Source: Actinospica robiniae DSM 44927
GTDB taxonomy: Bacteria; Actinomycetota; Actinomycetes; Streptomycetales; Catenulisporaceae
Reading direction: 5' to 3'
Length of the DNA: 64,000 nucleotides
Assembly (NCBI RefSeq): GCF_000504285.1
Contig: NZ_KI632511.1
Span: forward strand, 7,980,154-8,044,153
Shown here: positions 3 through 10,283 of the stretch, in pieces
How the letters are laid out: the number at the start of each line of letters is the position of its first letter
How positions within the stretch are numbered: position 1 is the stretch's first letter
Notes under the pieces: model-generated
The model's database searches: none
What the model was told of the DNA's origin: nothing
What the model saw: only the letters and a program-made list of their open reading frames with translations
Program-made: the position numbers and the translations under genes

Positions 3-2351
3 CAGAACTTCACGCCGTCGATGAACGGCAACTTCGAGGGCGGATACCAGGAGAACAGCGAGTTCTACCCGGTCGCGATCATGCAGTGCGCGGGGACGGA
101 CCCGGTCGCCTCGTTCCCGGACTTCAACTGCAACACCCTGGTGGTCAGCCAGTCGACGGCCACCCAGGACGGCACCGCGGTGGAGAGCTACACGCGCAGC
201 GGGACGTCGCAGGAGCCGACCGACTGCCTGGCCGTGCAGCCGGCGGACTCGGTCTGCGGCACCGGCTACGCCGACATCCAGGTGCAGACGAAGGAGCAGG
301 ACGCGGCTCTCGGCTGCGACCAGACGCACCCCTGCTCGATCGTGGTGATCCCGTCGTTCGGCGGCGATCCCTACACGCCGAATTGCGAGGACCACACCGA
401 CGACTACCAGGACGCGACCTGGGCCCTGGACCAGTTCCGGCCCTGGATGCGGGTCTGCGGGTGGAACGACGCGATCACGGTGCCGATCTCCTTCGCGCCG
501 ATCCCGTCGACCTACTGCCCGGCGAAGGACTACGCCTTCACCGCCGCCGGCTCCTCCATGCTGGAGAAGGCGATGGGGCAGTGGCAGCCGTCCTGGTGCC
601 AGTCCGGCGGCGGCACGGACCAGGTGGACTTCGACTACGACTCCGGGATCGGCGAGTACCAGGCCCGCGAGCAGTTCCTCTCCGGCGGCCAGGCCGTGAC
701 CAGCACCGTGGACACGGCGCTGGTGACCGATCCGGCCTCGACCTCGGCGACCGCGGGCTCGTCCCGGAAGTTCACCTACGCGCCGATCGCGACCACCGCG
801 ATATCAATCGCCTACTACATCGACAGCGACACCACGCAGGAGCCGGTCACCGACATCAAGCTGGACGCGCGGCTCGTGGCGAAGCTGCTCACCGAGTCCT
901 ACTCGCTCCAGTTCGGCGGCTGCCCGGCCGGCCAGCAGAAGGAGACCGCCGCCTGCGACCCGGCGGTGGGCGGGAACTGGCCGACCATCTTCAGCGATCC
1001 GGAGTTCTACCAGCTCAATCCGCAGTACACGCCGGACGACTTCCTGCTGACCGGCAACGACGCGGTCGACGGCGCGTTCCTGCCCATGGTGGTGTCCGGC
1101 GAGAGCGACCTGACCTGGGAGCTGACCCGCTGGGTCGCCTCCGACCCGGATGCGCAGGCGTTCCTCGAGGGCAAGCCGGATCCGTGGGGCATGCACGTCA
1201 ACACGAACTACGAGAAGTTCGCCTACCCGCTCAACAGCTTCGTCGTCCAGGACCTCGGCTGGACCGACCCGAACGGGCTGAACGAGCCGCTCTACAAGAC
1301 GATGCAGGAGGCGTGGGCCCCGGTCACCGGCGTGGACAACGTCGCGGCCGACCTGGCCGAGTGGCAGAGCAGCGACTTCCAGTTCGCCGCCACCTGCCCG
1401 AACACCACCAGCGCGGCCTTTCCGCCGTGCCCGGACGGCATCGCGCCGAACAACCCGCGGGCACCGGTGGAGGACTTCCCGCACCGCGCCCTGTTCGCGG
1501 TGATGGACTCGGGCACCGCCTCGGCCTTCCGCTTCCCGACCGCCGAGCTGGTCAACGCGGCGGGCAACGCGGAGGCGCCGACCACGGCGGCGATGTCCGC
1601 TGCCGTCACCGCGATGAAGACCAATCCCGACGGCGTCACGCAGTACCAGGACTTCACCGCCACCGCGGCGAACGCCTATCCGCTCACTGAGGTGCAGTAC
1701 GCGATGGTGCCGACCTGCGGCCTGAGTTCGGCCAAGGCGAGCGCGATCGCGAACTTCCTTACCGACGCGGCCGATTCGCAGACCTACGGCGTCGCCCTCG
1801 GCCAGCTTCCGCCGTGGGGCGGGTACCTGGCGCTGAGCCCGGCCCAGCAGCGAAAGACGCTCGCGGCGGCTTCGGCGGTGCGCGCGCAGAGCTGCAAGAC
1901 CGTCGGCGGTGACACGACCGTCAGCGGCAAGTCGGCCGGCAGCGGCGGCGGGGGCGTTCCGACGGGCGGTACCGGCGGTGGAACCGGCGCCGGCGCGGGC
2001 GCCGGCAGTTCCCCGAGTGCTTCGGCCGCGGCGAGCACCGCCGCGTCGAGCGCCGCGTCCGTCCCGGCCTCGCCCACCCCGATCGGCTTCGGCGACAAGG
2101 CCGCCGACTCCAGCGACGACGCCAAGGTGATCCTGCCGATCGCGCTGGCCGTGGGTGCGTTGCTGGCCGTCGGCGGGCCGCTCGCCTACGCCTTCGGCAC
2201 CGGGAACCTGCGCCGTCCGCGGCTGCGCCCGCCCTGGCGCGGGTCCTCGGCGGCGGGCGCGGCTGGCGCGGCGGGCGACGGGACCGGCGAGGCGCCCGGC
2301 GAGCCCTTCTCGTCGCAGGACCCTGCGGGCGGTGACGACCTCGATGGCTGA
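3..2351 (+). CDS. PstS-like phosphate-binding protein, membrane anchored, 5' partial
   Basis: The frame is open from the window edge, so the start lies upstream; more than 780 residues are visible. The middle section (ATTAISIAYYI, then DIKLDARLVAKLLTESY) aligns by eye with the PstS segment that precedes the IFTGxxxxW region, so this is probably a periplasmic-binding-protein fold for phosphate. The C-terminus is a Gly/Ser/Ala linker, one hydrophobic segment (VILPIALAVGALLAVGGPLAY, coded at about 2128-2190) and a basic tail, so the protein should sit on the outer face held by a C-terminal helix. It overlaps pstC by 8 bp, which implies one operon. It is much longer than an ordinary PstS (about 350 residues). 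Phosphate specificity is inferred mainly from the neighbours. Confidence 0.75.
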   Translation, partial: QNFTPSMNGNFEGGYQENSEFYPVAIMQCAGTDPVASFPDFNCNTLVVSQSTATQDGTAVESYTRSGTSQEPTDCLAVQPADSVCGTGYADIQVQTKEQDAALGCDQTHPCSIVVIPSFGGDPYTPNCEDHTDDYQDATWALDQFRPWMRVCGWNDAITVPISFAPIPSTYCPAKDYAFTAAGSSMLEKAMGQWQPSWCQSGGGTDQVDFDYDSGIGEYQAREQFLSGGQAVTSTVDTALVTDPASTSATAGSSRKFTYAPIATTAISIAYYIDSDTTQEPVTDIKLDARLVAKLLTESYSLQFGGCPAGQQKETAACDPAVGGNWPTIFSDPEFYQLNPQYTPDDFLLTGNDAVDGAFLPMVVSGESDLTWELTRWVASDPDAQAFLEGKPDPWGMHVNTNYEKFAYPLNSFVVQDLGWTDPNGLNEPLYKTMQEAWAPVTGVDNVAADLAEWQSSDFQFAATCPNTTSAAFPPCPDGIAPNNPRAPVEDFPHRALFAVMDSGTASAFRFPTAELVNAAGNAEAPTTAAMSAAVTAMKTNPDGVTQYQDFTATAANAYPLTEVQYAMVPTCGLSSAKASAIANFLTDAADSQTYGVALGQLPPWGGYLALSPAQQRKTLAAASAVRAQSCKTVGGDTTVSGKSAGSGGGGVPTGGTGGGTGAGAGAGSSPSASAAASTAASSAASVPASPTPIGFGDKAADSSDDAKVILPIALAVGALLAVGGPLAYAFGTGNLRRPRLRPPWRGSSAAGAAGAAGDGTGEAPGEPFSSQDPAGGDDLDG

Positions 2352-3363
2352 CACCACGCCCACCGAGGTGATCGGCCCGCCGGTCCCGTCCGGGCCGGCC
2401 GGAGCGGACGTCCCGCGCGTCATCGTGGCGCGGGTGACCGGCGCGGACCGGGCATTCCGGGCCCTGCTGCGCGGCGGTGGGCTCGCCGTGTTCGGGATCA
2501 CCGGGCTCATCGGCGGCTTCCTGGTGTTCCGGTCCTGGAGCACCTTCCGGGTGGCCGGCGGCAGGTTCTTCACCACCTCCACCTGGCTGATCGGCCCGAA
2601 CCGGTTCGGCATCGCCTCGGTGCTGCCCAACGGCATCGTGATCGCCCTGATCGCCCTGCTCATCGCAGTGCCCTGCGCGCTCACCACCGCCCTGTTCCTG
2701 TCCGAATACGCCCCGCACGCGCTCAAGCGCCCGCTGATCGCGCTGATCGACCTGATGGCCGCGATCCCGAGCATCGTCTACGCGCTCTGGGGCGTGTTCT
2801 TCCTGGAGCCGCGGATGCTCGGCCTGGCCCGCTGGCTCTCCGACCACGCCGGGTTCTTCCCCCCGTTCAAGGTCGTCGGCGGGGACATGCAGATCCTGTT
2901 CGAGTTCTCGCCGTTCATCGCCGGGGTGGTGGTCTCGCTGATGGTCATCCCGATCGTCACCTCGATCTCCCGCGAGGTCTTCGCCCAGGCCCCGCCGGGC
3001 GAACGGGAGGGCGCCTACGCGCTCGGCGCGAGCCGCTGGGGCATGATCCGCACGGTGGTGCTGCCGTACGGGCGCGGCGGGATGATCGGCGCGATCATGC
3101 TCGGCTTCGGCCGGGCGATGGGCGAGACCATCGTGATCGCGCTGGTCGTCTCGCCGGTCTACCAGTTCAACTGGCACGTCCTGCACACCGGCGGCCTGTC
3201 CATCCCCAGCCTGATCGCGCTGTGGTACGGCGAGTCCTCGCCCGCGATGCTCTCCGCGCTGATGGCCGCCGGGCTGGTCCTGTTCCTGCTCACCCTGGCC
3301 GTGAACGCGCTGGCCGGCGTGATCATCACCGGTTCGCGCTCCGGCGCGCAGAGCGCGGACTGA
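2344..3363 (+). CDS. pstC: Phosphate ABC transporter permease PstC
   Basis: A 339-residue inner-membrane permease of the high-affinity phosphate importer. About six hydrophobic helices are visible, for example GIVIALIALLIAVPCALTTA and IVYALWGVFF. The EAA coupling loop that contacts the ATPase reads REGAYALGASRWGMIRTVVLP-like and is followed by a GFGRAMGET stretch typical of PstC. The ATG at 2344 was chosen because it overlaps the stop of the upstream binding protein by 8 bp and follows a GGTGACGACC stretch. The long in-frame extension upstream of it is only shadow coding of that gene. PstC forms the channel together with PstA. Confidence 0.95.
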   Translation: MADTTPTEVIGPPVPSGPAGADVPRVIVARVTGADRAFRALLRGGGLAVFGITGLIGGFLVFRSWSTFRVAGGRFFTTSTWLIGPNRFGIASVLPNGIVIALIALLIAVPCALTTALFLSEYAPHALKRPLIALIDLMAAIPSIVYALWGVFFLEPRMLGLARWLSDHAGFFPPFKVVGGDMQILFEFSPFIAGVVVSLMVIPIVTSISREVFAQAPPGEREGAYALGASRWGMIRTVVLPYGRGGMIGAIMLGFGRAMGETIVIALVVSPVYQFNWHVLHTGGLSIPSLIALWYGESSPAMLSALMAAGLVLFLLTLAVNALAGVIITGSRSGAQSAD

Positions 3364-3374
3364 GAGGCACCGCC

Positions 3375-4595
3375 ATGACGGACATCTCCGCCGCCCCGCG
3401 CTTGGCGCCCGCCGCGCCTCCCGCGCCGCGGCAGCCCGCCGGGCCCGGCCCGGACCCGGATCGCGCCCGCCGCCTCCGGCGCCGGACGTTCACCGTGGAC
3501 GGCGTCTGCGCCGTGCTGGGATCGCTCTTCGGCTCCTTCGGCCTGGTCTGGCTGGTCTACGAACGGATCCTGCCGTTCACCGGCGCCGCCGGGTTCCTGC
3601 TGGCCTGGTACGCGGTGTTCCTGCTTGTGCTCGGCACGGTGACCGCGATGGTCTGGGGCGCGCGCGCCGTGGTGGACCGGATCGCCGCGACGCTGATGGC
3701 CACCCTCGGGCTGATCATCCTCGCCCTGATCATCGATCAGATCGCCTATGTCACCTTCACCGGCCGGCACGCGCTGTTCCACGGCAACCTCTTCACCCAG
3801 GTGATGGCGTTCACCGGCCCCGACGATCCGCTCACCAGCGGCGGCGTGCAACACGCCGTCGTCGGATCGGTCGAGCAGATGGCCATCGCCACCGCGATCG
3901 CGGTCCCGCTGGGGATCCTGGCCGCGCTCTTCCTGGTGGAGGTCGGCGGACCGATGGCCCGGCCGGTGCGCTCCCTGATCGAGGCGATGACCTCGCTCCC
4001 GGAGATCATCGCGGGTCTGTTCATCCTCGCCCTGGTGGTGCTCACCTTCGGGGTGCCCAAGAGCGGCTTCGCCGCCGCGCTCGCGCTGACCGTGATGATG
4101 ATCCCGTACGTGGCGCGCTCCTCCGAGGTCATGCTCCGGCTGGTCCCGCGCAGCCTGCGCGAGGCCTCGTACGCGCTCGGGGCGAGCCAGTGGCGCACGG
4201 TGTGGAACGTGGTGCTGCCCACCGCCCGGTCGGGGCTGACCACCGCGGTCGTGCTCGGCATGGCCCGGGCGATCGGCGAGACCGCGCCGCTGCTGCTGGT
4301 GGACGGGCTGAACAACTACATGAACGCCGATCCGTTCCACGACTGGCAGACCAGCCTGCCGCTGTTCATCTTCGAGTACGTCCGCGAACCGCAGACGGTC
4401 ATGCGGGAGCGGGCCTTCGCCGCCGCGGTGGTGCTGATGGCGCTGGTCCTGGTCCTGTTCACGATCGCCCGGCTGTTCGGCGGCAAGGCCCCGGGCGAGC
4501 TGACCCGACGCCAGCGCCGCCGCGCGGCCCGCGACCGTGCCCTGGCCGCGGCCGAACGGGCCCGCGAGGAAGGAGGCGGCCATGTCGCCGCATAG
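3375..4595 (+). CDS. pstA: Phosphate ABC transporter permease PstA
   Basis: A 406-residue permease, longer than the usual ~290 because of a Pro/Ala-rich N-terminus and about three extra hydrophobic helices before the core. The core has the EAA loop (REASYALGASQWRTVWNVVLP-like), then ARAIGETAPLLLV, diagnostic of PstA. The start at 3375 follows GAGAGGCACCGCC, 11 bp after the pstC stop. The C-terminal tail is Arg/Ala-rich and cytoplasmic. It is the second channel subunit of the Pst importer; the adjacent pstS overlaps it by 14 bp. Confidence 0.95.
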   Translation: MTDISAAPRLAPAAPPAPRQPAGPGPDPDRARRLRRRTFTVDGVCAVLGSLFGSFGLVWLVYERILPFTGAAGFLLAWYAVFLLVLGTVTAMVWGARAVVDRIAATLMATLGLIILALIIDQIAYVTFTGRHALFHGNLFTQVMAFTGPDDPLTSGGVQHAVVGSVEQMAIATAIAVPLGILAALFLVEVGGPMARPVRSLIEAMTSLPEIIAGLFILALVVLTFGVPKSGFAAALALTVMMIPYVARSSEVMLRLVPRSLREASYALGASQWRTVWNVVLPTARSGLTTAVVLGMARAIGETAPLLLVDGLNNYMNADPFHDWQTSLPLFIFEYVREPQTVMRERAFAAAVVLMALVLVLFTIARLFGGKAPGELTRRQRRRAARDRALAAAERAREEGGGHVAA

Positions 4596-6207
4596 GATTC
4601 GACGGCTCGGCCTCGTACTGGTCGCGGCCCTGGCCACGCTGGGGTTCGGGCTCTTCCCGGCCGCGCCGGCCTCGGCCGCGAGCTACGTGCCCCTCGACGG
4701 CGACGGCTCCTCCTGGGCACAGCCGGCCATCCAGCAGTGGTCCCGGGACATCGCGGTCCAGGACGGGATCCACATCAACTACACCGGCGACGGCTCGGCG
4801 CAGGGCCGGGAGAACTTCGCCGTGCACCTGAACGACTTCGCCGGGTCCGACATCGCGTTCCTCACCACGCCGGATCCGTTCGGCGCGGGCTTCGAGGCGG
4901 TGCAGTGGAACTACTCGTACATCCCGATCGTGGCGGGCGGCACCACGTTCATCTACAACCTGCACATCGGCGGCCGGACGGTGACCGATCTGCGGCTGTC
5001 CGGCCAGACCCTCGCCAAGATCTTCACCGGCGCCGTCACCAACTGGGACGATCCCGCGATCACGCACGACTACGGCGCTCCGCTGCCCAGCGAGCCGATC
5101 ACGGTGGTGACCCGCTCGGACGGGTCCGGCGCCAGCTACATGTTCACCCGGTGGCTCTCGAAGCAGTACCCGTCGATGTGGAACGCGTTCTGCGCGGCCC
5201 ACGGCGGCCCGAATCCCTGCGGCCCGACCGAGTTCTACCCGGGCTTCGGCGACTCCGTGCAGAAGAACGGCTCGGACCAGATGGCCACCTTCCTTTCCTC
5301 CCCGAGCAGTGAGGGCGCGATCGGCTACGACGAGTACGCCTACGCGATCAACTACGGCCTGCACGCAGTGAAGATGCTCAACGCGGCCGGCTACTACACC
5401 CTGCCGACGGCCTCGAACGTGGCGATCGCCTTGCAGGCGGCCGTGATCGACGAGAACCCGAACGACGCCGACTTCCTGATGCAGAATCTTGACAAGGTCT
5501 ACACGAACCCTGATCCACGCGCCTATCCGCTCTCGAGCTACAGCTACCTGATCATCCCGCGCGACACCGGGAAGGGCTCGCTGGTGCCGGACTGGACAAG
5601 TGTCAAGGGCATGACGCTCAGTACCTGGCTCAATTACGTGCTCTGCGGCGCGCAGGCCAGTGCGGGCCAGCTCGGCTACTCACCGCTGCCGAAGAACCTG
5701 GTCAACGGCGGGTTCCTCCAGGTCGATCACCTGCCCGGGCATATCGCGACGCCCGACCCGGCGAAGCTGATGGGATGTAAGAACCCGAACTACTCCGACG
5801 GCGTCGACTACCTCAAGAACGCGCCGTACCCGAGCAGATGCGACTTCCACACCGAGCCGCTCGACTGCACCACCGGCGGCGGGGGCGGCTCGGGCTCGGG
5901 CGGCGGCGGTTCGGGCGGCGGCTCCGGCAACGGCGCGGGCGGCGGCGCGGGCGCCGGTGCGTCGGCGGGCGCGCGGGCCGGCGGCACGGCCGAAGCCGGC
6001 GGCGCGCAGGGCGGCGTCGGCGGATCGGGCGGCAGCTCGGGCGGATCGCCCTCCGCGCAGCCGATCTACGCCGAACCGGTCGCGGTGGCCTCACGGCCCC
6101 AGCAGCAGACCGGGACGGCACTGGCCACCGTGCTGCTGATCATCGCGGCCGTGGCCGCGCCGGCGTTCGCCGGGGCGTGGGTCCAACGACGCAGGAAGCG
6201 AGGCTGA
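4582..6207 (+). CDS. pstS: Phosphate-binding protein PstS with C-terminal membrane anchor
   Basis: A 541-residue extracellular phosphate receptor. Residues 1-32 form a Sec signal peptide ending near PASAAS, with no lipobox cysteine. Ligand-site segments typical of PstS are DGDGSSWAQPAIQQW near the mature N-terminus, IFTGAVTNWDD, and RSDGSGASYMFTRWL. From about residue 430 a long Gly/Ser/Ala linker runs to a hydrophobic helix (ALATVLLIIAAVAAPAFAGAW) and a basic RRRKRG end, so the protein is tethered by its C-terminus instead of by lipid. The ATG at 4582 is preceded by AAGGAGGCGGC and overlaps pstA, which implies translational coupling. Confidence 0.93.
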   Translation: MSPHRIRRLGLVLVAALATLGFGLFPAAPASAASYVPLDGDGSSWAQPAIQQWSRDIAVQDGIHINYTGDGSAQGRENFAVHLNDFAGSDIAFLTTPDPFGAGFEAVQWNYSYIPIVAGGTTFIYNLHIGGRTVTDLRLSGQTLAKIFTGAVTNWDDPAITHDYGAPLPSEPITVVTRSDGSGASYMFTRWLSKQYPSMWNAFCAAHGGPNPCGPTEFYPGFGDSVQKNGSDQMATFLSSPSSEGAIGYDEYAYAINYGLHAVKMLNAAGYYTLPTASNVAIALQAAVIDENPNDADFLMQNLDKVYTNPDPRAYPLSSYSYLIIPRDTGKGSLVPDWTSVKGMTLSTWLNYVLCGAQASAGQLGYSPLPKNLVNGGFLQVDHLPGHIATPDPAKLMGCKNPNYSDGVDYLKNAPYPSRCDFHTEPLDCTTGGGGGSGSGGGGSGGGSGNGAGGGAGAGASAGARAGGTAEAGGAQGGVGGSGGSSGGSPSAQPIYAEPVAVASRPQQQTGTALATVLLIIAAVAAPAFAGAWVQRRRKRG

Positions 6208-6210
6208 CCC

Positions 6211-7176
6211 ATGGCTCTGCCGGAAATCCTCGAATCCGAGGCCGGGCCCGAGCCCGGCGTCCCGGACCAGGCCGTGCCAGAAGCGCGGCGGGTCAAGGCG
6301 CCGCGGCCGCCCGCCCGGCCCCGCCCGTCTCGGCGGCCGCGCCCCGAACGCACTCCGGTGCGGCGCCCGGCGGTGCTGGTCGCAGGGCTCGTACTTTCCG
6401 GGTTCGCCCTGCTGGTGCTCGGTTTCTTCGTGTACCTCTACGGCCTGTCCGGGCTCAGCGAGCAGCGTGCGCAGAGCGTGCTGTACAAGACCTTCGCGGG
6501 AGAACTCGGGCAGGCCACGGCGCCGACCGGGGCCACCGCCGACGGAGCGCCGGTGGCGATCCTGGCCATCCCGAGCCTCGGTATCTCCGACCTCGTCGTC
6601 GTCGAGGGCACCGGTTCCGGGGATCTGACGCACGGTCCCGGGCACCTGCGCTCGAGCGTGCTGCCGGGACAGGCCGGGGTGAGCGTCGTCTACGGGCGGG
6701 TGCTCACCTACGGCGATCCGTTCGCGCATCTGATGCGGCTGCAACGCGGCGACAAAATCACGGTGACGACCGGGCAGGGGACCTCGACGTACACGGTCGA
6801 ATCCTTCGGTACGAACGCGGTGCCTCCACCCGATCCGACGCCGAACCGGCTGGTGCTCGAGACCGCCGACAGCGCGATCTTCCCGAGCCGGAACAGCACG
6901 GTCGAGGTCAGCGCGGATCTCTCCTCGGCCGCGCAGCCGACACCCCCGTCCCGGCCCGCGACCGCGCCGCGGGAGTACGCGCTCGCCGGAGACGCCGACG
7001 CCGTCGTGCCGGCCGTGTTCTGGGCCCAAGCGCTGGTCCTGGTGCTGCTCGGCGGCGTCTTCGCGGCCCGCCGCTGGTCGCGCTGGCCCGCTCTGCTGTG
7101 CGCGGCGCCGGCGGCGTTCGCGCTGGCGTGGGCCGTGTACGAGAACCTCTCGCTGCTGTTGCCGAACCTCTACTGA
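6211..7176 (+). CDS. Sortase-fold membrane protein lacking catalytic residues
   Basis: A 321-residue protein with a basic N-terminus, one helix (residues 53-77), an extracellular sortase-like beta domain (about 110-235) and two C-terminal helices. The domain follows class E sortase order: AILAIPSLGI, then HGPGHLRSSVLPGQAG, then VVYGRVLTYGDPF, then RLVLETADS. In active enzymes the third motif is GHRxTHGxPF and the fourth is LTLxTC. Here the His position is Arg163, the Cys position is Ala219, and the closing catalytic Arg is missing from VEVSADL. It is therefore unlikely to be a transpeptidase. Its place between pstS and pstB, 3 bp from each neighbour, suggests an accessory role in the transporter. 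The function is unknown. Confidence 0.75.
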   Translation: MALPEILESEAGPEPGVPDQAVPEARRVKAPRPPARPRPSRRPRPERTPVRRPAVLVAGLVLSGFALLVLGFFVYLYGLSGLSEQRAQSVLYKTFAGELGQATAPTGATADGAPVAILAIPSLGISDLVVVEGTGSGDLTHGPGHLRSSVLPGQAGVSVVYGRVLTYGDPFAHLMRLQRGDKITVTTGQGTSTYTVESFGTNAVPPPDPTPNRLVLETADSAIFPSRNSTVEVSADLSSAAQPTPPSRPATAPREYALAGDADAVVPAVFWAQALVLVLLGGVFAARRWSRWPALLCAAPAAFALAWAVYENLSLLLPNLY

Positions 7177-7188
7177 GGAATGGGGAGA

Positions 7189-8025
7189 ATGAGCACTCTG
7201 AATGAGACGGCGCTGCCGGCCCCCGCGCCCGCACCGGCCTTCGCCGAGGGCCCGGCCCCGGCCGGACTCGAGACCCGCGCGGTCTCGGCCTGGTTCGGCG
7301 ACCACAAGGTGCTCGAGCGGGTGTCGCTGAGCATGGAACCCGGCCGGGTCACCGCGCTGATCGGCCCCTCGGGCTGCGGAAAGTCCACCTACCTGCGGGT
7401 TCTCAACCGGATGCACGAGATGGTGCGCGGCGCCGCGCTGGCCGGGGAGGTCCTTCTCGGCGGCGAGGACGTCTACGACCGGGCTGCCCGGCCCGCCGAC
7501 GTGCGCAAACGCATTGGAATGGTGTTCCAGAAGCCCAACCCGTTCCCGGCCATGACGATCTACGAGAACGTGGCCAGCGGCCTCAAGCTGGCCGGGATCA
7601 AGGTCGGGGACCGGGACGCGGTGGTCGAGGACGCGCTGCGGCGGGCCGGGCTGTGGAACGAGGTGCAGCGGCGCCTGCGCACCCCGGGAGGCGCCCTGTC
7701 CGGCGGTCAGCAGCAGCGGCTGTGCATCGCCCGGTCCCTCGCCGTGGCCCCGGACGTGCTGTTGATGGACGAGCCGTGCTCGGCGCTGGACCCGACCTCG
7801 ACCAGGCGGATCGAGGAGACGATCGCCGAGCTCGACGGCCAGGTCACCATCGTCATCGTGACGCACAACATGCAGCAGGCGGCCCGGGTCAGCCGCAACT
7901 GCGCGTTCTTCCTGGCCGGGGAGGACCAGCCCGGCCGCGTGGTCGAGGCCGGCCCGACCGAGCGGATCTTCGGCGACCCGGCCGACCCGCGCACCGCCGA
8001 CTACATCCACGGCCGCTTCGGCTGA
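7189..8025 (+). CDS. pstB: Phosphate ABC transporter ATPase PstB
   Basis: The cytoplasmic ATPase of the Pst importer, about 278 residues. It has Walker [10 protein letters not shown], the Q-loop with VFQKPNPFP typical of PstB, the signature [15 protein letters not shown], Walker [13 protein letters not shown] and switch His in IVTHN. An Ala/Pro-rich N-terminal extension of about 25 residues precedes the domain. Two starts are possible, ATG 7180 and ATG 7189; 7189 sits 10 nt after a GAGG and is preferred. It is the last gene of the operon and converges on the lytic gene at 8143. Confidence 0.95.
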
Positions 8026-8142: not shown

Positions 8143-9048
8143 TCACGAAGAGTGCATGATCGTGTACACGATGTGCTTGGCCTGGTCCTGCCACTGCGAG
8201 TACAGCGAGCCGTTGAAGGAGCGCTGGACGTCCTGAGCGGCGGTGTGCAGCGACATGTCCTGGTAGTTCGACGGCAGGCTCTTGAGGAACGCCTTGGCCG
8301 CGTACGTCGGCGTGGTCAGCTCGGACGGCGAGCCCCAGCCGGTGGACGGACGCTGCTGGAACAGGCCCAGCGAGTCGTGGTCGACCGCTACGTTCAGGTT
8401 GTGCAGCTTCGACTCCTGCATGGCGGTGGCCACGGCGATGGTCGACGCGTACGGCGAGAGGTTCATGTTCTCGGCCGCGTGCACGATCGTGGTGGCGTTC
8501 TCCCACTGCGCGGAGGTCAGGCTGATGTGGCTCTGGGAGCCCTGCTCCGACGTCGGGGATATGTCCCCCATCGAGACGCTCGCGTAGGGGTTCGACGGCG
8601 TCGTCTTGGTCGACTCGGTCGAGGACCGCGTGCTGCTCTGCGTCTCGGTCTGCGCCGGGGCCTGCGCCGGAGCCTGGGCCGCCTTCGAGGCGGTCGCGCC
8701 GGGCTGGACGGTGGAGGTCACGGCGGCCGGGCTGGTCGCGGCGGCGGCCTGCGCGTCGCCCGCGCCGGAGGTGGCCAGCGGCACGATCGCGACGCCGACG
8801 GCGGCGACGGCCAGGGCCGCGGCGGGGAAGCGCTTGGTCGCGGCGGGCTTGTGCTTCTCGACCATGGCGCTACCGGACTGGTAGCCCTTAGTGGCCGCGG
8901 CACTACCGGACTGGTAGCCCTTGGCGACCGCGGCGCTACCGGACTGGTAGCCCTTGGCCAGGGCGGAGCTGCCGCTCTGGTAGGCGGTACGGAAGGGGAT
9001 ACGGGAGATCAGGTCGCGCGTGAACGCACGGGGGGTGTTCGAAGACAC
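8143..9048 (-). CDS. Secreted lysozyme-fold (transglycosylase-like) protein with YQSGS repeats
   Basis: A 301-residue protein starting at GTG 9048. The N-terminal 60 residues carry four copies of an ~11-residue repeat (YQSGSAAxAKG), then a basic stretch and a hydrophobic export helix (FPAAALAVAAVGVAIVPLA). A Ser/Thr/Gln/Ala-rich linker leads to a C-terminal domain of about 120 residues with AVATAMQESKL (the glutamate is the likely catalytic acid) and SLGLFQQRPSTGWG, typical of actinobacterial lysozyme-like wall hydrolases. The gene lies behind a c-di-AMP riboswitch, as such wall-lytic genes do in other actinomycetes. Enzymatic activity is inferred. A paralogue lies next to it at 9477. Confidence 0.75.
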   Translation of the reverse strand: MSSNTPRAFTRDLISRIPFRTAYQSGSSALAKGYQSGSAAVAKGYQSGSAAATKGYQSGSAMVEKHKPAATKRFPAAALAVAAVGVAIVPLATSGAGDAQAAAATSPAAVTSTVQPGATASKAAQAPAQAPAQTETQSSTRSSTESTKTTPSNPYASVSMGDISPTSEQGSQSHISLTSAQWENATTIVHAAENMNLSPYASTIAVATAMQESKLHNLNVAVDHDSLGLFQQRPSTGWGSPSELTTPTYAAKAFLKSLPSNYQDMSLHTAAQDVQRSFNGSLYSQWQDQAKHIVYTIMHSS

Positions 9049-9476: not shown

Positions 9477-10283
9477 TCAGGCCGGGGCCTTGCCGTTCAT
9501 GATGTCGTAGACCATGGTCGTGGCCTGCGACTGCCACTGTGCGTAGGCGGTCGGATACCCGGAGCGCTGCACGTCCTGGGCCGCCTCCCACAGGTAGATG
9601 CTCATGTAGTCCGGCGCGTCCTTGTCGAGCGCGGCGAGGAAGGCGTTGGCCGCGTACGTCGGGGTGGTCAGCTGGGAGGTGGTGCCCCAGCCCTGCGAGG
9701 GACGCTGCTGGAAGAGGCCGAGCGAGTCCGCGTTGGTGGCGGTGGTCAGGTTGATCAGCCGCGACTCCTGGATCGCGGTGGCCACGGCCACCACGGCGGC
9801 GTACGCGTGCATCCCGCGCTTTTCCACCGTCGCGACTATCGTCTTCGCGTTCTCCCACTGGTCCGCGCTCGGGGTGAACGTGTTCTGCGTTCCGTAGAAG
9901 GCCACCGGCTCCAGGGTGCCCCAGGACACTGAGGCGTACGGGCTGGTCTTGGTGTGGGTCGGCGTCGCGCTGGCCGAAGCGGAGGCGCTCGCGCTGGCCG
10001 AGGTCTTCACGCTGGACGCGCTGACGCTGGGCGAGGCGACCGCGGTCGGCGCGCTGCTCGCCTGCTGGGCCGGCACCAGGTCCGCCATGGCCGGATTGGG
10101 AGTGGTCGCCGGGGACGCCTCGCCCAGCGCCATCGCCGCCGCCACGCCGCCCGGTCCGCCGACCACCGTGCCCGCCAGGGCCGCGACCGTGATCGCCGGG
10201 TACTTGCGCATCCACGACCCGTTCGGGTCGGAGCGAGTGATCGGACTCTGACTCCCGTGCTTCGACTTGCTGTGACTGCCCAC
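9477..10283 (-). CDS. Secreted lysozyme-fold (transglycosylase-like) protein, paralogue
   Basis: A 268-residue paralogue of the downstream neighbour, GTG start at 10283. A basic N-terminus and hydrophobic export segment (PAITVAALAGTVVGGPGGVAA) are followed by a Ser/Ala/Thr-rich linker with an (SA)n run. The C-terminal domain carries AVATAIQESRLINL (probable catalytic Glu) and DSLGLFQQRPSQGWG, with a closing WQSQATTMVYDIM. It lacks the YQSGS repeats of its neighbour. It has its own c-di-AMP riboswitch and terminator, so it is regulated separately but by the same signal. Peptidoglycan cleavage is inferred from the fold. Confidence 0.75.
   Translation of the reverse strand: MGSHSKSKHGSQSPITRSDPNGSWMRKYPAITVAALAGTVVGGPGGVAAAMALGEASPATTPNPAMADLVPAQQASSAPTAVASPSVSASSVKTSASASASASASATPTHTKTSPYASVSWGTLEPVAFYGTQNTFTPSADQWENAKTIVATVEKRGMHAYAAVVAVATAIQESRLINLTTATNADSLGLFQQRPSQGWGTTSQLTTPTYAANAFLAALDKDAPDYMSIYLWEAAQDVQRSGYPTAYAQWQSQATTMVYDIMNGKAPA

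Follow-up and report, generated by a model that had tools for sequence, protein, structure and literature searches.

The window—a 64,000-nucleotide stretch of the Actinospica robiniae DSM 44927 genome (G000:C1:7980154-8044153 of 9.9 Mb)—carries an operon for a Pst-type importer in which a sortase-fold protein of class E descent has lost its catalytic residues. Sortases are known as enzymes. In Actinomycetota this pseudo-sortase seems to have joined the Pst-type genes in a single recruitment; purifying selection maintains it, and a basic residue has become fixed where the catalytic His used to be. We consider it probable that it is a fixed, non-catalytic adaptor subunit of a PhoP-regulated, usually second, phosphate importer, with its groove holding a partner.

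The operon is tightly packed in the order S1, pstC, pstA, S2, pseudo-sortase and pstB (Table 1). The start of the pstC-type gene overlaps the S1 stop, and the S1 gene itself begins upstream of the window (by eye at L035:5628, 373 bases before window position 1; an L035 position minus 6000 gives the window position). The original prediction placed the pseudo-sortase gene 3 bp from both pstS and pstB, which is borne out by the gene ends (S2 stop ending at 6207 and pseudo-sortase start at 6211; pseudo-sortase stop ending at 7176 and first pstB ATG at 7180). Its further claims of three membrane segments and of membrane-tethered binding proteins also hold—the three predicted helices, the first of which runs past the membrane, are long enough to cross it, and both PstS-type proteins of the operon have a C-terminal hydrophobic segment. 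PstA scores above its curated cut-off (match at G000:C1:7983831-7984631). S2 (PF12849, 121.9 bits) stays under the curated PstS cut-off (TIGR00975, 181.3 bits versus 205), its RSDGSG loop nevertheless being intact; phosphate is therefore the likely, not the proven, substrate. Another pst set of the same genome, at 6146344-6148070, scores better, which makes the operon of the window an additional importer in A. robiniae.

Table 1. Genes of the importer operon in the window and landmarks of the pseudo-sortase.
Feature	Position	Strand	Remarks
S1	3..2351	+	Large PstS-fold protein, C-terminal TM, phosphate loop unconserved
pstC-type permease	2344..3363	+	Pfam BPD_transp_1; start by eye
pstA-type permease	3375..4595	+	TIGR00974, 217.9 bits (cut-off 193.45); start by eye
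S2	4582..6207	+	PstS-type phosphate-binding protein, intact RSDGSG loop, C-terminal TM
Pseudo-sortase gene	6211-7176	+	ORF, 321 aa
Pseudo-sortase, catalytic sites	residues 163, 219, 230		His to Arg163, Cys to Ala219, Arg to Thr230
Pseudo-sortase, helices	residues 53-100, 262-288, 291-315		C-terminal LLPN motif
pstB-type ABC ATPase	7180..8025 (alternative start 7189)	+	Pfam ABC_tran, 119.2 bits; starts by eye

Upstream of the window lies a gene for a third PstS-like protein (L035:3383-4531). In this third family, the motifs GSDTTQ, RPNGSG, DFARSS and PQxGSGTR replace the RSDGSGT loop. The stretch between this gene and S1 encodes a small protein (L035:4555-5469) that begins like a signal peptide and matches no Pfam family; it belongs to a family (U2) found in 17 of 98 mapped loci, in type I operons (see below). 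On the other side of the operon, the window encodes two adjoining related secreted proteins (8143-9048 and 9477-10283 (-)) that have LFQQRPSxGWG and LTTPTYAA in common; the former carries YQSGSA repeats near its N terminus.

The pseudo-sortase matches the Pfam sortase family (PF04203, 52.3 bits; cut-off, 26.6), and its best NCBIfam subfamily is the class E sortase NF033747, albeit at 73.4 bits, under the cut-off of 160. An AlphaFold2 model from 61 rows (pLDDT 90, pTM 0.80) places a barrel between helix 53-100 and the C-terminal helix pair. After a fold search with Foldseek, superposition by VIA-align gave Z 17.5 and 2.5 Å over 126 residues against Streptomyces avermitilis SrtE (5go6), Z 16.2 and 2.3 Å over 129 against S. 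coelicolor SrtE1 (5cuw), and Z 18.3 and 2.5 Å over 146 against a class D sortase (4d70). The predicted model thus superposes on sortases, in agreement with the class E fold that had been proposed.

Alignment with triad-intact class E sortases confirmed the proposed loss of all three catalytic residues, with His corresponding to Arg163, Cys to Ala219 and Arg to position 230 (Thr); the catalytic residues described for SrtE1 are His251, Cys320 and Arg329 (PMC5148588). For relatives, one genome per GTDB species was scanned with the first 20 copies as query, yielding 231, of which the best 80 were kept as named loci. The window, these 80 loci and 47 others provided 128 copies distinct over the aligned columns (two of 130 rows were identical and dropped). 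None of the 128 has His or Cys at the catalytic position. Position 163, which ranks 17th in conservation among 265 columns, carries Arg (123 copies) or Lys (5 copies); the residues at position 219 are A in 77, G in 23, S in 23, T in 3 and V in 2; and the Arg of position 230 is kept in three (L059, L095 and L205) and lost in 125. The C-terminal LLPN is nearly invariant (P in all 125 filled rows, N in 119). In 15 close pairs dN/dS ranged from 0.11 to 0.79. Recurrence of the triad loss in 128 distinct copies rules out an isolated sequencing or mutation event. That the protein is a decaying relic without function, as the vanished catalytic residues might suggest, is hardly credible, since the reading frames are open, columns of the alignment are invariant, dN/dS stays under 1 in 15/15 pairs and the gene neighbours last over the phylum.

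A triad-intact orthologue in a pst operon was sought among the relatives and none was found: no copy found in such an operon keeps His or Cys, the outcome that the original prediction implied. Every pst-type row with covered triad columns lacks the triad (71 alignment rows), and triad-intact rows fetched with flanks had no accepted pst neighbour; for the weaker matches listed, neighbours were inspected at 22 loci (L164-L183, L161 and L162). Among the candidates considered, L159 (G060) keeps Cys and Arg, has the C-terminal helices and ends in LLPANY; the end of its 3.5-kb contig truncates the gene on the 5′ side, in the stretch that would include the His region, and the contig has no pst-type match. 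L205 is linked to pst genes and keeps Arg only. An ABC ATPase match near L176, 2.9 kb away on the other strand, was counted as another ABC ATPase, as were those near L204, L206, L214 and L215 (approximately 1e-33 to 1e-36, versus 1e-120 for the pstB of L205).

The kept fold, including the strand around the old Cys, raises the question of whether the protein works as an enzyme through a different catalytic set, or as a substrate-presenting partner of a housekeeping sortase. Two copies (L060 and L063) have a His one residue past position 163, the old His position, and another sortase-like match exists in the A. robiniae genome (G000:C1:8154544-8154930). However, the variety of residues at position 219 means that no new nucleophile is fixed at the old Cys position, and inspection by eye of 34 S1 and 32 S2 tails revealed no LPXTG/LAXTG-type sorting signal. 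We regard this explanation as very unlikely; judged from the alignment, the absent nucleophile argues against transpeptidation.

The association with Pst-type genes is persistent. The closest named relative among the best 80 of 231 is from Actinospica durhamensis (77% identity); in this same set of 80, pst-type genes or S1 adjoin the pseudo-sortase in every locus and a same-strand pstB is present in 75. A pst-type or S1 neighbour also accompanies 43 of the 47 other distinct copies; for the four exceptions (L122-L125) the flanking sequence spans only 1.5 kb. Hosts include Streptomycetaceae, Catenulisporaceae, Micromonosporaceae (the pst-linked copies L077, L088 and L091 are from Actinoplanes), Pseudonocardiaceae, Nocardioidaceae, Microbacteriaceae and Micrococcaceae, together with one Nanopelagicales MAG and one Acidimicrobiia MAG. 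Among 197 genomes sampled evenly across the class, the pseudo-sortase was detected in 28 (E ≤1e-40, among the matches listed). Those listed below this threshold were class E sortases in which the match stops before the C-terminal helices, with few rows between.

The arrangement around this core varies. Many operons have other genes between the pseudo-sortase and pstB, or between it and S1, so the protein need not be in contact with the permease; in L157 and L059 the S1-pseudo-sortase pair lies on the strand opposite to the adjoining pst genes. A search of four ORF sets found no natural fusion that joins the pseudo-sortase to S1 or to a Pst or PstS-like gene. The operon maps are rough, as the gene caller missed some genes (for example, the pseudo-sortase in L035 and L021), and the 98 mapped loci include regions fetched twice (for example, L031 and L039). 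Among genomes of the same family (L021-L028, L022, L032, L033, L037 and L038), several have two paralogous pseudo-sortase operons that differ in layout: type II includes surface-protein genes and type I does not. For the pstC-type permease of type II operons, the match to the PstA model is broken into two, as though an insertion separated the pieces (G020:C10:9093-9977, G031:C10:158719-159603 and similar rows). Of 14 genomes searched, 12 encode a higher-scoring PstA at another site. The second PstA of G222, likewise at another site, scores lower, and in G168 the pseudo-sortase-linked PstA is the only one over the cut-off.

S1 is the steady companion of the pseudo-sortase. It was found in 73 of the 80 named loci (best 80 of 231), and in all seven misses the pseudo-sortase copy starts within 3.7 kb of the contig start. 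In the same 197 genomes S1 was detected in 28 (E ≤1e-30) and both proteins in 26 (among the matches listed). Of the two genomes with S1 only, G106 has a contig that ends 35 bases after the Ig-repeat gene following S1, and the G104 contig runs on for 0.9 kb past a WxLIP gene, a stretch that lacks a pseudo-sortase. Of the two with the pseudo-sortase and no S1 match at that threshold, G168 has a diverged S1 beside the copy and G055 a contig 3.5 kb long. Contig-cut pseudo-sortase fragments occur in two more of the 197 genomes (G097 and G088), neither with an S1 match. S1 is the direct neighbour of the pseudo-sortase in the early-branching rows L205, L095 and L157.

In the model of the S1 of the window (pLDDT 71 overall), residues 178-627 form a PstS fold that superposes on Mycobacterium tuberculosis PstS3 (4lvq; Z 32.2, 2.3 Å over 309). 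In a profile comparison, the S2 loop RSDGSG lies opposite SGESDL of S1; the RSDGSG loop is kept in the S2 consensus and absent from that of S1, which is therefore, as far as its residues tell, probably not an ordinary phosphate receptor. A C-terminal hydrophobic segment was present in 60 of 61 S1 and 30 of 32 S2 gene models tested. In L157, S1 has a further match, at 32.1 bits (cut-off, 25), to the neocarzinostatin family, an Ig-like domain.

A link to phosphate control is suggested at some of the operons. In S. coelicolor, the PHO box is reported to have GTTCACC-type direct repeats as its core (PMC9019756). We tested 40 of the 80 loci, the rest having no room upstream of the first recognised gene. 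PHO-type boxes with up to two mismatches were present at 12 of the 40 operon starts, compared with a mean of 0.19 and a maximum of 2 in first-order Markov shuffles, and in 1 of 40 control intervals inside the pseudo-sortase gene; the other 28 starts have no such box at the threshold used. In the A. robiniae operon, a two-mismatch box precedes the first gene by 133 bases; for this genome on its own the signal is weak, since 1.2 boxes with ≤3 mismatches are expected by chance in the 16-kb stretch. In the small genome G168, the cassette of S1, pseudo-sortase and PstS-like protein is divergent from the only pstA over the cut-off, phoU and (by eye) a sensor kinase gene are nearby, and a box with one mismatch lies approximately 100 bases before pstC.

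The original prediction left a choice between a structural and a ligand-sensing part of the transporter. As a sensor, the protein would bind an anion (phosphate or a phosphorylated wall polymer) at its old active site, where Arg or Lys stands for His, and report to the permease. The basic residue at position 163 in 128/128 copies, the Pho context in G168 and the boxes at part of the operon starts are compatible with such a role. The second basic residue, the catalytic Arg, is lost in 125/128, however, so no conserved anion pocket is evident from the sequence, and S2 already offers a phosphate loop; we judge a sensor unlikely. The structural role gains indirect support from the conserved location next to Pst genes and from the tight co-occurrence with S1.

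Some relatives add surface proteins to the operon. In type II operons, the interval from S1 to the pseudo-sortase, or the stretch right behind the latter, holds genes for the third PstS-like protein, for Ig-repeat (Big_3_5) proteins and, in 36 of 98 loci scanned (some regions twice), for a WxLIP-type protein. Of the 80 named loci (best 80 of 231), 31 have a WxLIP gene. In L077, one gene matches WxLIP_PGBD (PF06030) at 33.6 bits, above the cut-off of 27.3, and the neighbouring gene matches WxL at 21.6 bits, under the cut-off of 25; our in-house 'WxL' HMM mostly tracks Ig-repeat proteins, and its counts are not true WxL domain counts. WxL proteins are described as occurring almost entirely in Lactobacillales and Bacillales (PMC10599100), and the words actinobacteria, phosphate, sortase and transporter are absent from the main text of that paper. 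WxLIP-type and Ig-repeat surface proteins in actinobacterial Pst operons can be seen at L077:6559-9209 and in L068, L064, L060 and others.

Ig-repeat and WxLIP genes directly adjoin the pseudo-sortase in many relatives (WxLIP in the 31/80 named loci above), and sortases natively meet surface proteins at the membrane. The protein might accordingly serve as an assembly or export chaperone for the surface proteins of the locus (S1, Ig-repeat and WxLIP-like) and be no stable part of the importer. Yet no WxLIP/WxL-type gene was found in the operon of the window or at the early-branching L205 locus, where S1 and Pst genes are present all the same. We hold a chaperone to be rather unlikely.

To trace the origin of the family, 246 genomes of the phylum, mostly outside the class, were searched with the L159 fragment and twelve loci were fetched. 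Eight encode intact, extended, triad-intact proteins (L204, L206-L210, L212 and L215) with a two-helix C-terminal extension and an LP-containing tail; of the others, L214 is split by a stop, L213 and L211 are without the extension, and L205 is pst-linked (His to Arg, Cys to Ser, Arg kept; order S1, pseudo-sortase, pstC, pstA, pstB, pstS). No S1, PstS, PstC or PstA match was found in the 13–17 kb around the extended triad-intact sortases; L204, L206 and L215 have a weaker ABC ATPase match nearby. The tails of these sortases (LLPAAY, ALPGNY and LMPPNY) resemble a sorting motif and could be a built-in pseudosubstrate.

In a quick tree of 77 chosen rows (47 of the 128 distinct pseudo-sortases and 30 triad-intact sequences; triad columns removed), the 47 pst-type rows form one clade with one change of state (SH-aLRT 94). 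A starred branch (100) unites them with the eight extended active rows and L213, which is triad-intact without the extension and falls among the extended rows; several inner forks of the tree are unsettled. The deepest pst-type row is L205, and as this copy keeps Arg, the simplest reading is a single recruitment followed by stepwise loss of the triad. Many soil and water actinobacteria would accordingly owe a fixed structural part of a nutrient importer to a single, ancient conversion of an enzyme.

Four observations argue that the protein does a job: its fold, the basic residue fixed at position 163, the steady presence of S1 and the Pst genes. In the adaptor that we favour, the N-terminal helix and the two C-terminal helices would lie next to PstC/PstA, and a peptide or loop of a partner would be held, uncut, in the former substrate groove. 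This stretch would most likely come from S1 (the identity of the partner is a guess), which is the first candidate because it is the direct neighbour in the early-branching loci. The pseudo-sortase may thereby dock S1 and the anchored phosphate receptor S2 on the permease and, in relatives, the Ig-repeat/WxLIP surface proteins as well.

A bolder version, which we advance tentatively and think doubtful as it stands, is that the dead sortase and the loop-less PstS-fold protein form a permanent extracytoplasmic module, with the groove as a non-covalent clamp. The clamp might hold the LP-containing C-terminal tail of the pseudo-sortase itself or a membrane-edge stretch of S1. A wall-spanning receptor tree of S1, S2, the third PstS-like protein and the Ig/WxLIP proteins would then feed phosphate through the thick cell wall to the permease. 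If true, such a module would be a new kind of ABC importer.

We found neither a naturally dead sortase family nor a sortase in a phosphate importer or pst operon in the open-licence papers of PubMed Central that were searched. Here, a dead sortase has become a constant feature across much of a phylum, accompanied by another degenerate protein, in an otherwise well-described type of transporter. The family exemplifies an enzyme that has probably become a scaffold and whose active sisters and intermediate forms still exist. It also suggests that many actinobacteria supply a further Pst importer via a surface complex, with implications for how they scavenge phosphate and for the control of their physiology by phosphate.

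Compared with known systems, the operon shares pstC, pstA, pstB, a PstS with the RSDGSG loop and, at some operon starts, PHO-type boxes with the PstSCAB importer, to which it adds the pseudo-sortase, the loop-less PstS-fold S1 and often a third PstS-like protein. The WxL/WxLIP clusters of Lactobacillales and Bacillales resemble the operons of some relatives in having a WxLIP peptidoglycan-binding domain beside Ig-repeat proteins, whereas the latter are actinobacterial, belong to a Pst operon and have a WxL match under cut-off. The class E sortase SrtE (5cuw, 5go5/5go6 and NF033747) has the fold, the N-terminal membrane helix and the GPGH and YGxPF motifs in common with the pseudo-sortases, which take their tree position beside class E enzymes. 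In contrast to SrtE, the pseudo-sortases have lost the catalytic His, Cys and (in 125/128) Arg, sit with Pst genes and add two C-terminal membrane helices ending in LLPN; the copy of the window scores below the NCBIfam class E cut-off. The nearest active relatives are the extended class E sortases (L204, L206-L210, L212 and L215), which have the same extension with an LP-containing tail and, unlike the pseudo-sortases, keep the His-Cys-Arg triad.
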